A DNA stretch of 42,078 nucleotides from Candidatus Thermoflexus sinensis. GTDB lineage: Bacteria > Chloroflexota > Anaerolineae > Thermoflexales > Thermoflexaceae. The number at the start of each line of letters is the position of its first letter. Positions within the stretch are counted from its first letter, which is position 1. Shown here piece after piece: positions 3,696 to 40,378 of this stretch. The notes below the pieces were generated by a model. It had not been told where the DNA came from, made no database searches, and saw only the letters and a program-made list of their open reading frames with translations. The translations under genes and the position numbers were made by a program. Location: the NCBI GenBank assembly GCA_016842045.1, contig JAEVEY010000073.1:1-42078 (forward strand), in the 5' to 3' direction.

Positions 3696-3734
3696 GGGAT
3701 TGGGGCGGGCACCGAAGGCGCCCGCCCCAATCCC
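3696..3734. terminator. 39-bp hairpin between convergent degV-like and ugd genes
   Basis: GGGATTGGGGCGGGCACC-GAA-GGCGCCCGCCCCAATCCC; 18-bp arms with one mismatch. Confidence 0.5.
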
Positions 3735-5254: not shown

Positions 5255-7882
5255 TCATATCCGCTCGGAGCGCTCTATAACCGGCCATCGCTCCGCCGGG
5301 AGCACGCCAGCCATCAGCAGTCCAATCTGTTGCAGCGTGGCCTCTGCTCGATCCAGGACAGCGACGAGGCGGCCCCGATACATCACCGCAATCCGATCCG
5401 CCAGGGAGAAGATCTCATCCAGCTCCGTGGAAACCAGAAGCACAGCCGCCCCCTGATCCCGCATCTCCACGATCTTGCGGTGGATATATTCCGTTGCCCC
5501 CACATCCAGACCCCGGGTGGGCTGGTTGGCGACCAGCAGGCGGATGGGGCGGGAAAGCTCCCGCGCGGCGATCACCTTCTGCTGGTTGCCTCCGGAGAGG
5601 CTTCGCACCGGGGTATAGGGACTGGGCGTTCGGATGTCATAGAGAGCGATGAGCCGCCGTGCGTGATTCAGAACCGCCTGGGGCTGCCGCTGAATGCCGC
5701 GGGCGAAAGGAGGCTGATAGTAGGTGTTCAGCACCAGATTGTCCGCCACGGAGTAAGGCAACACCAGGCCGTGCTTCTGACGGTCCTCCGGGATGTGAGC
5801 CATCCCCCGTTCGGTTCGATGACGGGGCGGTTGGAGGGTGACTTCCTCGTCGAGCAGGAAGATCCGGCCGCCGGCAGCCGGCCGTAACCCGACCAGGGCC
5901 TCGATCAGTTCCGTCTGGCCGTTGCCCTGCACCCCGGCGATCCCCAGGATCTCGCCCGCCCGCACGGAGAAGCTGACCCCATTGACCACCATCGCCCCCC
6001 GGTCGTCGCGGACCCGGAGATCCTCCACACGCAGGACCTCCGGGCCGGGCCGGGCTGGGGTCTTCTCCACGGTCAGCATCACTTCGCGGCCAACCATCAT
6101 CGCCGCCAGATGCGCCTCGTCGGCCTCCTGGGGCGTCAGGGTACCTACCACGCGGCCGTTCCGGAGCACCGTGATGCGATCGGCGACGGCCAGGACCTCC
6201 TTCAGTTTGTGAGTAATGAAGATGATTGAGACCCCCTGCTGCTGCAGGCGGCGCATCACCCGGAATAGCTCTTCGGTCTCCTGAGGCGTCAACACCGCCG
6301 TCGGCTCGTCCAGGATCAGGATGTCCGCCTTCCGGTAGAGGGCTTTCAGGATCTCCACGCGCTGCTGGACCCCGACCGGCAGATCCTTCACCAGCGCTTC
6401 CGGATCCACCTCGAGGCCGTATCGCTGGGAGAGGGCGCGGACTTCCTCCACCGCTCGCCGGAGATCCAGGAAGGGTCCACGGCGGACCTCCTGACCCAGG
6501 ATGATGTTCTCCGCCACGGTGAACACGGGCACCAGCATGAAATGCTGGTGGACCATCCCGATGCCCAGGCGGATGGCGTCGCTGGGGCTGCGGATCTCCA
6601 CCGGCTGGCCGTTCACGTAGATCTCCCCCTCATCGGGGTGATAGAGGCCGTAGAGGATATTCATCAGGGTGGTCTTTCCCGCCCCATTCTCCCCCAGGAT
6701 TGCGTGGATTTCCCCTCGACGCAGCGAGAAGTTCACGTGATCGTTGGCGATCACCCCCGGGAAGCGCTTGACGATCCCCACGGCCTGCAGGATCGTCCCA
6801 TCCACGGAGAGGGGAGCCGGGGCGGGATGGGCCGCCCGACGCCGGGGCGGCAGGGCTTCTTTCTCATAGGGTTGCCCATCGGCAGCAGGGGGGATCGTCC
6901 GGCCCACGATGCCCGTGAGCACCAGCATCGTCATCACATAGGGCACCATGCCCACAAACTGGGAGGGGGCGGGGAACTCGAACTGCTGGGCGTTGGCCTG
7001 AAGGGCCTGGGCTGCTCCAAAGAGGAGCGTAGCCGCCCAGGCGCCGAACGGCGTCCAGTTCCCGAAGATCATCGCCGCCAGGGAGATGAAGCCCCGACCG
7101 CTGGTCATCAGGGGCTCGAAGGCCGGCACCGACTCCAGGGTGAAGTAAGCGCCAGCCAGGCCGGCGATGGCCCCTCCCAGGACCACGTTGATGTAGCGAA
7201 GGCGAATGACATCAATCCCCAGGGTGTCTGCGCCGCGGGGATGCTCGCCCACCGCCCGTGTCCGCAGCCCCCACACGGTCCGGAACAGGAGGATATGCAC
7301 CAGGATCACCAGGATCGGCGCCAGCCAGGTGATCGGCTGCTGGTTGAAGATGCTCCCCACCAGAGGGAGGTCTGAGAGGACGGGCAGGGCGATGCGGGGC
7401 AGCACTCCGGGGGAATGGGGCATCTGGCCGCCGAAGAAAAGCTGACGGTTCAGATAGCCGGTGATCCCAACTGCCAGGATGTTGATGACCGTCCCGCTGA
7501 TGATCTGATCGGTTTTGTAGGTGACTGAGAGGACGGCGTGGAGCAGGCCCAGGAGGGCGCCGGTGAGGATGGCGATGAGCACGCCCAGGAGGAGGGCCAG
7601 GAGCCCGGGAGCGCCGGCGTCGTAGATGTAGAGTGAGGCCGTGAATCCGGTGAACGCCGCCGTCAGCATCATGCCCTCGATGGCGATGTTCACCACCCCG
7701 CTCCGTTCGCAGAAGATGCCGGAGAGGGCCCCCAGCACCAGCGGGGTGGAAACCCGGATGGTGGTGGACAGCATGCTGACGATGATCACTGCCGCCGGAT
7801 AGCGCCCGTAGCCCAGCGCCACCGCTGTTCCAAAAATCAGGGCGATCACGCCGATGACAAAGCCGAATCGACGCGCGTCCAT
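5255..7882 (-). CDS. Fused ABC importer subunit: NupQ/YufQ-type permease (about aa 1-342) joined to NupO/YufO-type ATPase with two nucleotide-binding domains (about aa 363-875)
   Basis: Single 875-aa ORF. Permease motifs ERSGVVNIAIEGMMLTAAF and TYKTDQIISGTVINI; ATPase Walker A GENGAGKTTLMNILYG; second domain LSGGNQQKVIAARELSR. Confidence 0.9.
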   Translation of the reverse strand: MDARRFGFVIGVIALIFGTAVALGYGRYPAAVIIVSMLSTTIRVSTPLVLGALSGIFCERSGVVNIAIEGMMLTAAFTGFTASLYIYDAGAPGLLALLLGVLIAILTGALLGLLHAVLSVTYKTDQIISGTVINILAVGITGYLNRQLFFGGQMPHSPGVLPRIALPVLSDLPLVGSIFNQQPITWLAPILVILVHILLFRTVWGLRTRAVGEHPRGADTLGIDVIRLRYINVVLGGAIAGLAGAYFTLESVPAFEPLMTSGRGFISLAAMIFGNWTPFGAWAATLLFGAAQALQANAQQFEFPAPSQFVGMVPYVMTMLVLTGIVGRTIPPAADGQPYEKEALPPRRRAAHPAPAPLSVDGTILQAVGIVKRFPGVIANDHVNFSLRRGEIHAILGENGAGKTTLMNILYGLYHPDEGEIYVNGQPVEIRSPSDAIRLGIGMVHQHFMLVPVFTVAENIILGQEVRRGPFLDLRRAVEEVRALSQRYGLEVDPEALVKDLPVGVQQRVEILKALYRKADILILDEPTAVLTPQETEELFRVMRRLQQQGVSIIFITHKLKEVLAVADRITVLRNGRVVGTLTPQEADEAHLAAMMVGREVMLTVEKTPARPGPEVLRVEDLRVRDDRGAMVVNGVSFSVRAGEILGIAGVQGNGQTELIEALVGLRPAAGGRIFLLDEEVTLQPPRHRTERGMAHIPEDRQKHGLVLPYSVADNLVLNTYYQPPFARGIQRQPQAVLNHARRLIALYDIRTPSPYTPVRSLSGGNQQKVIAARELSRPIRLLVANQPTRGLDVGATEYIHRKIVEMRDQGAAVLLVSTELDEIFSLADRIAVMYRGRLVAVLDRAEATLQQIGLLMAGVLPAERWPVIERSERI

Positions 7883-7964
7883 TCTGTATCCTCTCTGAAA
7901 AGAAGACTGGTTTTCATAGAACTGACGCCGTTCGCCTTTATCTCAGCGAATTGGGAACCGAACA

Positions 7965-8075
7965 TGCTCTGTTGCGATCTTGGCGGTACCCGCGCGGGTT
8001 TCGCGTTTGCCCCTCCCCACGTCGCTTCGCGGCGGGGGGAGGGGGTAAATAAAGCCTCTAGTTTGCAACAGAGCA
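7965..8075 (+). mobile_element. MITE-like element, family B1, 111 bp, perfect 11-bp TIR and 9-bp target duplication
   Basis: TGCTCTGTTGC...GCAACAGAGCA, flanked by AACCGAACA at 7956-7964 and 8076-8084. Contains a C-rich/G-rich hairpin. Confidence 0.85.
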
Positions 8076-8101
8076 AACCGAACATCGAAGGTGCCCGGCT
8101 T

Positions 8102-9292
8102 TCACAGCTCCCCCCACCCGCGGGTCAGCACCATCCGTTCGGCCTCGGCTGCCCTTCGGAAGAGGGGACGATAGAGGGCGCGCACAATGGCTTCTGCGGC
8201 CACGAACATCAAAATCAACGCCTGGATCACGGAGATCAGGTCCACCGGGACCTGAGTGAGAAATTGCATGCGACTGGCCCCGTTGCGCAGGGCGCCGAAG
8301 AGGAAGGCCGCCAGCACCACGCCCAGAGGATGGACCTTGCCTAACAGCGCGATGGCGATGGCATCGAAACCGTATCCCAGGTTGAAGCTGAGCTCGTGAC
8401 GGTAATTGAGCCCGGTCACCTGCACCGCGCCGGCCATCCCGGCCAGGAAGCCGCTCATGGCCATGGTGAGAACAGTGATCCGGACGATGGGGATGCCCGC
8501 ATAGCGGGCGGCGTGGGGGTTCAGGCCCACCGTCCGAATCTCGAAGCCCAGCGTGGTCCGCCACAGAAGCCAGGCCACTAATAGGGCCATCCCCAGGGCG
8601 ATCAGGAAGCCGGCGTGGAGGCGGAGATCCGGGTCCGCGAACAGCCGGGGAAGCCGGGCCGTCTCGGCGATCCGGGGCGTCCGCGCGACCACATTCGTGG
8701 GGCTGGGATCCCGCATGGGGCCGTTCAGGAGGTAGCTGGCCATCAGGAGGGCAATGTAATTCATCATGATCGTGTTGATGACCTCATGTCCGCCTGTGCG
8801 TGCCTTCAGCCAGCCCGGGATCGCCGCCCAGAAAGCTCCGGCCAGGGCTCCGCCCAGGATCGCCAGGGGGATATGAAGGACAGCCGGGATCGTCCCGCCA
8901 AGCAGCGAGGGAAGGGCATACCCGATCCATGCCGCCACGATGGCCCCCAGGGCGAGCTGTCCCTCCGCCCCGATGTTGAACAGTCCACCGTGGAACGCCA
9001 GGGCGATGCCCAGCCCAGCGAAGACATAGGGGGTCATCTGGACGAAGGTCTCGCTGAGGGCTTTCGGGGATCCGAAGGCTCCTTCCCAGAGCCCCCGGTA
9101 GGCCAGAAGGACCAGGAGGGGTTGACCCGTAGCCAGGGTCACCACAATGCCGCCCATCACCAGGGCAGTGAAGACGGCCAGGATCGGAACCCACAGCGCG
9201 CTCCCCTGGACCGATTGTCGCAGGAAAAGGGTGAGCCTGTCCAGCCGCCCTCCCCATGCCTCAAGAATTCCCCGCGCGTTCCGCTCCACCAT
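8102..9292 (-). CDS. ABC transporter permease, nucleoside/BMP-type (NupP/YufP-like)
   Basis: AFHGGLFNIGAEGQLALGAIVAAWIG; GGHEVINTIMMNYIALLMASYLLNGPM; same strand and adjacent to the NupQ-NupO fusion. Confidence 0.9.
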   Translation of the reverse strand: MVERNARGILEAWGGRLDRLTLFLRQSVQGSALWVPILAVFTALVMGGIVVTLATGQPLLVLLAYRGLWEGAFGSPKALSETFVQMTPYVFAGLGIALAFHGGLFNIGAEGQLALGAIVAAWIGYALPSLLGGTIPAVLHIPLAILGGALAGAFWAAIPGWLKARTGGHEVINTIMMNYIALLMASYLLNGPMRDPSPTNVVARTPRIAETARLPRLFADPDLRLHAGFLIALGMALLVAWLLWRTTLGFEIRTVGLNPHAARYAGIPIVRITVLTMAMSGFLAGMAGAVQVTGLNYRHELSFNLGYGFDAIAIALLGKVHPLGVVLAAFLFGALRNGASRMQFLTQVPVDLISVIQALILMFVAAEAIVRALYRPLFRRAAEAERMVLTRGWGEL

Positions 9293-12634: not shown

Positions 12635-12674
12635 TCTGTGTGGGCGGGCCGCGTACGCGGCCCGCCCACACAGA
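12635..12674. repeat. 40-bp perfect palindrome
   Basis: TCTGTGTGGGCGGGCCGCGT|ACGCGGCCCGCCCACACAGA, centre 12654/12655. Related but degenerate copies near 17120-17175 and 1935-1985. Confidence 0.9.
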
Positions 12675-17056: not shown

Positions 17057-17202
17057 AGGCGCCTCCTCTGAGGATAATTAACGAGAATTGCTCTGTTACG
17101 AACAGGAGCAGGTTCCGGGATTCGGGCGGGGTGGGCCGCGTAAGCGTCCTGCCCCATAGAGAAAATCTTCCTTAAGGCGTGGCTTGGTTTACAGGCTCGA
17201 TT

Positions 17203-17321
17203 TGCTCTGTTGCGATCCTGATGGTGCCCGCTCGGGTTCCGCGTTCGCCCCTCCTCCCTCCCCACACCACGAAGCGGCGTGGGGAGGGAGGTCAATCAGG
17301 CCCCCAGCTGGCAACAGAGCA
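17203..17321 (+). mobile_element. MITE-like element, family B1, second copy (119 bp)
   Basis: TGCTCTGTTGC...GCAACAGAGCA perfect 11-bp TIRs; body alignable to 7965-8075. No clean TSD. Confidence 0.8.
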
Positions 17322-17799: not shown

Positions 17800-17871
17800 A
17801 TTTGCGCCGCTCCGCTGCAGGCGGGGGCATGGGGTGGCAGGGGCCCCGTCTACCCTGGGAGGGATCCTTTC

Positions 17872-17981
17872 AGCCCAGTTGCGCTCCGGATGGTGCCGGC
17901 TCGGGTTCCGCGTTTGCCCCTCTCCGTGCCGCGAAGGCGTGGAGAGGGGGGTAAATCAAGTCTCCTGTTTGCAACAGGGCA
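17872..17981 (+). mobile_element. MITE-like element, family B1, third copy (110 bp), degenerate TIR
   Basis: AGCCCAGTTGC...GCAACAGGGCA; flanks gatcctttc (17863-17871) and gatccattc (17982-17990), 8 of 9 identical. Confidence 0.75.
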
Positions 17982-18298
17982 GATCCATTCTCTCCCCACA
18001 GCCCCCGGGGCTGCAGGCAGGAGCTCGCCTCTCATCCGGGGAGGAGTTAGACGGCCAGCCCGCTGCAGGGCATGTCCTTTCGGGCGCTCTCCGGATGCGG
18101 AGGGAGTTCTTCTTCCCATGAGGTTTTCGGGGTTGTGCCGAAGGCCCCTGCCCAATCCCCGAAAGATATGGAGAGGGATCATCCGCCTTCTCTGTGAATT
18201 CGGATCACCCTGATCTCATAACTGGACAAATTTCCAGTTAGGCTATAATGGGAAGTGTAGACGTCACTCACGGACAAACCGGAGAACAGGTGCTTCCC

Positions 18299-20310: not shown

Positions 20311-20487
20311 CGCAGCCGGTTTTCCCCTCTCCAGGCAGTATTGGGCCAGTGGCCTTCGGTCCCTGGCCCAACACTCCAGAGGATAAAGTGTGGATTTTGG
20401 GGATTGGGGCGCCGCCAAAGCGGCGCCCCAGCGTTCTTTTCCACTTGCAACAGAGCACAGCTCACTGACCATCAGGGGGAAGTCGCA

Positions 20488-24486: not shown

Positions 24487-24651
24487 CTGGATTTTGGACA
24501 AACTCCTCCCTTTCCTCAGGATGGGGGATTCAACTTCCCCCCTCCCCGCGGCCCAGAGGGCCGCGGGGAGGGGGGAAGGGGGGAGGGGCTTGCCTCACGC
24601 AAGGGAAGGGCTTGAACGAGAAATCAGATGGCCCGTTTGTCCAAAGTCCAA
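24487..24651. mobile_element. MITE-like element, family D, 165 bp, 17-bp imperfect TIR and 8-bp target duplication
   Basis: CTGGATTTTGGACAAAC...GTTTGTCCAAAGTCCAA (15/17), flanked by GTAAGAAA at 24479-24486 and 24652-24659. 45-bp perfect hairpin at 24534-24578. Confidence 0.8.
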
Positions 24652-34419: not shown

Positions 34420-34603
34420 GAGCTGGGGATAGGGCTTATCCTGTTTGGGTCCAGCGAATGGCCCTACCCCCCTTTCTCCCCCCTCCCCACGGCCCTTTGG
34501 GCCGTGGGGAGGGGGGAGAAATATATTTTTGGGGGGAGTCGCGCGCCTTCGGCGCGCGACTCCCCCCCAAACCCCCAGGAGAAAACCAACTGCGTAACTC
34601 CTA
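34417..34603 (+). mobile_element. MITE-like element, family A, left end diverged, overlapping the speB stop codon (187 bp)
   Basis: Right end AACTGCGTAACTCCTA (34588-34603). Hairpins at 34473-34521 (49 bp, 23-bp arms) and 34531-34567 (37 bp). Left remnant TAGGAG at 34417. Confidence 0.7.
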
Positions 34604-38243: not shown

Positions 38244-38429
38244 TAGGAGTTACGCAGTTCGGGGCTCGCGAGAAGAGGTAAAATGGCCCCACCCCCTTTG
38301 ATCCCCCCTCCCCACGGCCCTTTGGGCCGTGGGGAGGGGGGATCAATATATTTTTGGGGGGAGTCGCGCGCCGAAGGCGCGCGACTCCCCCCAAAAACCC
38401 CCAGGAGAAAACCAACCGCGTAACTCCTA
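38244..38429 (+). mobile_element. MITE-like element, family A, complete copy (186 bp), 16-bp TIR, 5-bp target duplication
   Basis: TAGGAGTTACGCAGTT...AACCGCGTAACTCCTA (15/16), flanked by CAGGA at 38239-38243 and 38430-38434. Hairpins at 38298-38346 and 38351-38397. Confidence 0.85.
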
Positions 38430-39232: not shown

Positions 39233-39271
39233 AAAACTGCGACGGCGGCTTCAAGCCGCCGTCGCAGTTTT
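39233..39271. terminator. Bidirectional terminator between convergent amidase and secF
   Basis: 19-bp perfect arms around AACTGCGACGGCGGCTT-C-AAGCCGCCGTCGCAGTT with flanking A/T runs. Confidence 0.8.
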
Positions 39272-40294: not shown

Positions 40295-40378
40295 TAGAAG
40301 TTACGCCGTTCGGGGCCCGCGAGAAGAGGTGGAATGGCCCCCCAAACCCCCAGGAGAAAACTAACTGCGCAACTCATA
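40295..40378 (+). mobile_element. Hairpin-less (internally deleted) family A MITE derivative, 84 bp, in the secD-secF gap
   Basis: TAGAAGTTACGCCGTTcggggcccgcgagaagaggtggaatggccc directly joined to cccaaacccccaggagaaaactAACTGCGCAACTCATA. Confidence 0.75.

Follow-up and report, generated by a model that had tools for sequence, protein, structure and literature searches.

The window, that is, the whole stretch of 42,078 bp that was analysed, contains a pair of genes for an ABC importer, and a 111-bp element lies in the 219-bp gap between them (Table 1). The product of the downstream gene is a fusion of permease and ATPase of 875 aa. Judged by their orientation and layout, the two importer genes are likely to be co-transcribed, which would place the element inside an operon transcript. 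A preliminary description of this DNA had named the system a nucleoside importer. The assignment to an ABC importer pair holds, but the nucleoside substrate is not established: the best NCBIfam models, all of which score below their cut-offs, correspond to a putative B6 transporter.

As mobile DNA the element is of an ordinary type, a MITE, and this assignment is well supported. Its TIRs are perfect over 11 bp and are conserved across the aligned copies of the family, and the element is flanked on both sides by a perfect 9-bp target-site duplication (TSD). These features, as given in the preliminary description, are borne out by the sequence, by the further copies, and by an empty site in a related genome. 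The span initially reported for the element and its duplications, 7956-8085, starts at the correct base but is one base too long, the right TSD stopping at 8084. The element was also correctly described as having no coding capacity, in that the only ORFs present there are spurious. A consensus scan of the element found no intrinsic terminator or promoter.

Table 1. Positions of the importer genes, of the inserted element and its parts, and of two further copies in the window.
Feature	Position	Strand	Details
Fused permease-ATPase, same importer, downstream gene	5255..7882	-	PF02653 and two ABC_tran stretches
Left TSD copy AACCGAACA, 9 bp	7956..7964	.	Sequence; 9-bp TSD is family-wide; target single (AACCGGACA) in sister genome G002
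MITE, non-coding	7965..8075	+	111 bp; about 98 copies are recognisable in its own genome
Left TIR TGCTCTGTTGC	7965..7975	+	Sequence; identical end on IS5-type elements
Central hairpin CCCCTCCCCACGTCGC-TTC-GCGGCGGGGGGAGGGG	8010..8044	.	14 of 16 pairs are Watson-Crick in this copy
Right TIR, + strand reads GCAACAGAGCA	8065..8075	-	Sequence
Right TSD copy AACCGAACA, 9 bp	8076..8084	.	Sequence
ABC importer permease, upstream gene of presumed operon	8102..9292	-	PF02653
Second MITE copy	17203..17321	+	119 bp; TIRs perfect; flanks match at 1 of 9 positions (no TSD)
Third, older MITE copy	17872..17981	+	Left TIR degenerate; flanks match at 8 of 9 positions

Copies, target-site duplications and the empty site

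The genome to which the window belongs (G000) is represented by an incomplete assembly of 3.44 Mb in 212 contigs. A genome-wide search with the 111-bp sequence, as had been proposed, recovered about 40 dispersed full or near-full matches in this assembly, and the exact TIR 11-mer TGCTCTGTTGC occurs there 53 times, compared to a single occurrence of a reversed control pattern. With a covariance model derived from 25 copies, 138 matches were obtained in G000, 70 in the sister genome G002, 57 in G003, and 16 in G001, counts that take in some copies twice, once per strand; other congeners gave few matches or none. In a separate profile search of the collected loci, 98 distinct elements were resolved in G000. 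Long stop-free stretches hold 30% of the MITE insertions and 81% of control positions, showing that the insertions avoid open frames.

Two further copies are present in the window. The flanks of the older one, GATCCTTTC (17863-17871) and GATCCATTC (17982-17990), are identical at all but one of nine positions. Solo ends of the element were additionally observed at 17089 and at 20447-20457. In some copies and half-copies (L045, L260, and these solo ends), a GC-rich hairpin of the GGGGCGGCC...GGCCGCCCC type replaces or adjoins the usual one, as if the hairpins had been exchanged or inserted.

The generality of the TSD was assessed in 44 full copies by comparing the last d bases to the left of each with the first d bases to the right (d = 2-15), against shuffled pairings. 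Flank identity peaks at d = 9 (59.6% versus 27.5% expected, z = 12.6). Slight rises at d = 8 and d = 10 (z = 4.3 and 2.9, respectively) are as expected if some ends are shifted by one base. The duplication is perfect in five of the 44 copies and at least 7 of 9 positions match in 21, and in the other 23 the flanks agree at no more than 6 of 9 positions, as expected for old or rearranged copies. Recombination between copies was considered as an explanation for the missing TSDs and was rejected, as a cross-copy comparison of flanks gave no swapped pairs. The 9-bp TSD is thus a property of the family and not of a single copy.

The orthologous site in G002 reads TGGG-AACCGGACA-TCGAAGG without interruption, with the target present once and the element absent. 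This site is divided between two contigs of the G002 assembly, and a single contig spans the empty target. A query consisting of the joined flanks and one AACCGAACA also gave end-to-end matches without an insert in G001, G003, G004, G005, G006, and G008, in which the gap is too diverged for the target to be read. The single, uninterrupted target in G002 shows that AACCGAACA does not belong to a longer conserved element, so that neither of the two observations named in the preliminary description as refuting was made. Together with the TSDs seen across the family, the empty site supports the original proposal that the duplication marks movement of the element as a unit. As the sister MAG has a single target and no element, the insertion at 7965-8075 is recent. 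Approximately 15 further copies are common to G000 and G002 at the same positions and are nearly identical in sequence. Therefore, the family was active both before and after the two genomes split, with older insertions common to both and a recent one that G002 lacks.

A second MITE-like family, with TIR TAGGAGTTACGCAGTT, was observed in the window at 38246-38427 and 40297-40376, with others ending at 34601, ending at 114, and starting from 42011. Its members contain one or two near-perfect hairpins, and their loops occur both ways (AAA/TTT and TTC/GAA). In the G002 orthologue of 7950-8085 (L191, L196), the target is preceded, a few bases upstream, by an end of the TAGGAGTTACGCAGTT type, and intergenic gaps may be shared landing zones for different MITE families. 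Long perfect or near-perfect intergenic hairpins that have no clear MITE ends were noted at 3696-3734, 12635-12674, 24534-24578, and 39233-39271. Several of these are located at the 3' ends of genes, and they may be terminators.

Insertion sequences sharing the terminal repeat

It had been argued from the window that the element could be mobile only in trans, and this is supported by insertion sequences (ISs) with the same TIR, present as ends in a congener and as whole elements in other genomes of the class. A transposase gene bounded by this TIR, which had been proposed as a search target, occurs as ends in G002 and in full elsewhere in the class; none was detected in G000 itself.

In G002, three contigs stop approximately 125 bp past a TGCTCTGTTGC end, a pattern produced when assemblies break at repeated ISs. 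Two of these read MSTQRESRYVVIARIAYHLARQVLPKY from the left end, and the third runs into the right end as ...KFGDRIRSRSVRLQRREVCIKGLVYDIHR-stop. The contigs terminate inside the element. By sequence reading, ends of the IS5-type element at loci L121 and L131 of G002 sit within genes resembling IS1-type transposases, an IS within an IS, and the sides of these genes share no 9 bp. When 299 genomes of the class were searched, relatives of the transposase termini from G002 were present in nine further genomes. The G022 element is 922 bp long, with perfect TIRs on both sides, a perfect 9-bp TSD (ATCTGACCT), and a frameshifted gene. The G202 element is 926 bp long and encodes an intact transposase of 282 aa, which matches NCBIfam NF033579 (IS5_2) with E = 3.2e-27 and 95.8 bits, below the cut-off of 140, and PF01609 with E = 8e-5 and 22.9 bits, against a cut-off of 23. 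The element in G296 is 951 bp long and has perfect TIRs. Of the 13 IS relatives examined, only that of G022 has the 9-bp TSD, and the other 12 show none of any length. The resemblance to the MITE extends beyond the 11 bp, in that the G002 IS begins on its left with TGCTCTGTTGCAATCATAGG, similar to MITE left ends such as TGCTCTGTTGCAATCCTGG.

No candidate IS5-type relative with these termini was detected in the incomplete assembly of G000, from which repeats may have dropped out. The single PF01609 (DDE_Tnp_1) gene of G000 was excluded as a partner, as it is bounded by other ends (GACTTGTTGCACAAT). Similarly, none of the 24 PF01609 matches among the congeners is bounded by TGCTCTGTTGC.

On the basis of the shared termini, an IS5-type IS of approximately 920 bp is the likely mobiliser of the MITE, and a member of this lineage that was formerly present in G000, or that is missing from its assembly, can be inferred to have been the actual one. 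The IS5-type DDE transposase would recognise the shared terminal repeat of the MITE, and its 9-bp staggered cut would leave the 9-bp target duplication. After the split from the G002 lineage, one copy would have been inserted in this way between the two importer genes. Overall, it is very probable that the MITE owed its movement to a DDE transposase of IS5 type, acting in trans and generating a 9-bp TSD, and that it was inserted recently in the importer gap.

It is improbable that a transposase of another family with a similar short TIR moves the MITE and that the IS5-type elements are convergent only. Such a mobiliser would be consistent with the failure to detect a partner in G000, with the different ends of its single PF01609 gene, and with the absence of a visible 9-bp TSD from most of the IS relatives. 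However, the G022 element has both the exact 11-bp TIR and a 9-bp TSD, the nearest of the MITE-bearing congeners has these IS ends, and the left ends of IS and MITE are alike subterminally. A family of REP-like palindromes, rather than a transposon, could likewise favour intergenic sites and have a strong palindrome at its centre, but the duplication would then be a coincidence, which is contradicted by its recurrence across the family. Given also the empty site in G002 and the TIRs defined at both ends, this reading has next to no probability.

Concerted change in the central hairpin

Every copy has at its centre a hairpin of approximately 16 pairs with a 3-nt loop. Among 66 in-register copies, 61 stem cells are altered and yet paired, compared to a mean of 19 and a maximum of 34 in 2000 shuffles in which the right arms were permuted among copies, a procedure that does not fully control for the relatedness of the copies. 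The TIRs, likewise inverted repeats, lie in the same DNA and are equally old, and thus provide an internal comparison. In these, six paired changes were counted in 44 copies versus 3.9 expected (maximum 11), as is consistent with independent drift. Mismatched stem cells include 64 G-T and 86 A-C cases, with no clear preference for wobble pairs on either strand. The loop reads TTC or TTT in 31 copies and the reverse complement, GAA or AAA, in 30. Nearest-neighbour copies have the same loop type in 38 cases versus 30 by chance, a slight excess. No loop flips were observed between orthologous copies at the approximately 15 nearly identical loci shared by G000 and G002, and flips are therefore slower than the split of these genomes.

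Replication template-switching between the hairpin arms would copy a mutation of one arm into the other, and could also invert the loop. This process, perhaps accompanied by some selection, is moderately favoured as the means by which the hairpin is kept paired. Alternatively, the hairpin could be a functional RNA or terminator under selection in the transcript, and the element an attenuator or stabiliser dispersed by transposition. Paired changes above expectation would fit this alternative, as would the minus-strand transcript of the element, which folds better than shuffles (z = -3.7). It is nonetheless unlikely, given that wobble preference is not clear, that no terminator-like T-run is present, and that the 111-bp element has no Rfam match; nor does selection on an RNA stem predict the nearly equal loop orientations. 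Template-switching is favoured because selection on RNA can explain the paired changes, but not the loop inversion.

It is possible, if somewhat doubtful, that the MITE family is a natural recorder of palindrome template-switching, with homogenised arms, loops at about 1:1, and drifting TIRs. As the similar hairpins of the TAGGAGTTACGCAGTT family also have loops in both orientations, the hairpins of mobile elements in this lineage could be upheld by a mutational mechanism and not by selection. The central hairpin is the more interesting part of the element. Its concerted change could be used to gauge how often palindrome template-switching occurs in nature, with the drifting TIRs as an internal control. 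It is also a caution that compensatory changes are not, by themselves, proof of a functional RNA.

Relation to known elements and mutations

The literature searched yielded no description of such MITEs in Chloroflexota, and no paper among those listed gives the TIR letters TGCTCTGTTGC in this context. The family is thus apparently undescribed in this lineage, to which the present analysis adds a MITE family with a plausible IS5-type partner, the searched literature describing no such family there. Prokaryotic MITEs reported elsewhere include QMITE2 of Coxiella and Chunjie of Geobacter (PMC10969869). The 111-bp element is similar to prokaryotic MITEs in being short and non-coding, in having TIRs and a TSD, in its many dispersed intergenic copies, and in its presumed mobilisation in trans. 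It differs in being a new sequence family, and in carrying a central hairpin that is near-perfect and whose arms vary together.

Elements of the IS903 group have inverted repeats of 15-27 bp and 9-bp duplications (PMC3281130), and a 9-bp duplication is also reported for IS903B (PMC9769513). The candidate mobilisers resemble this group of the IS5 family in their putative IS5-type DDE transposase, their length of about 1 kb, and, in G022 alone of the 13 relatives, a perfect 9-bp TSD. In contrast, the ISs found here are 922-926 bp long, have an 11-bp core TIR, and give transposase model scores below curated cut-offs.

The closest parallel to the central hairpin is quasipalindrome template-switch mutation. 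Published events of this type were seen between strains or on trees, unlike those described here, which are undated and are distributed over dispersed copies of one element. Two marks are reported for DNA-polymerase template-switching at inverted repeats, homogenisation of the arms and inversion of the spacer (PMC8604942; compare PMC8794818). Both are seen across the MITE copies, and ttc-gaa spacer inversions are reported in yeast (PMC8604942, PMC8794818).
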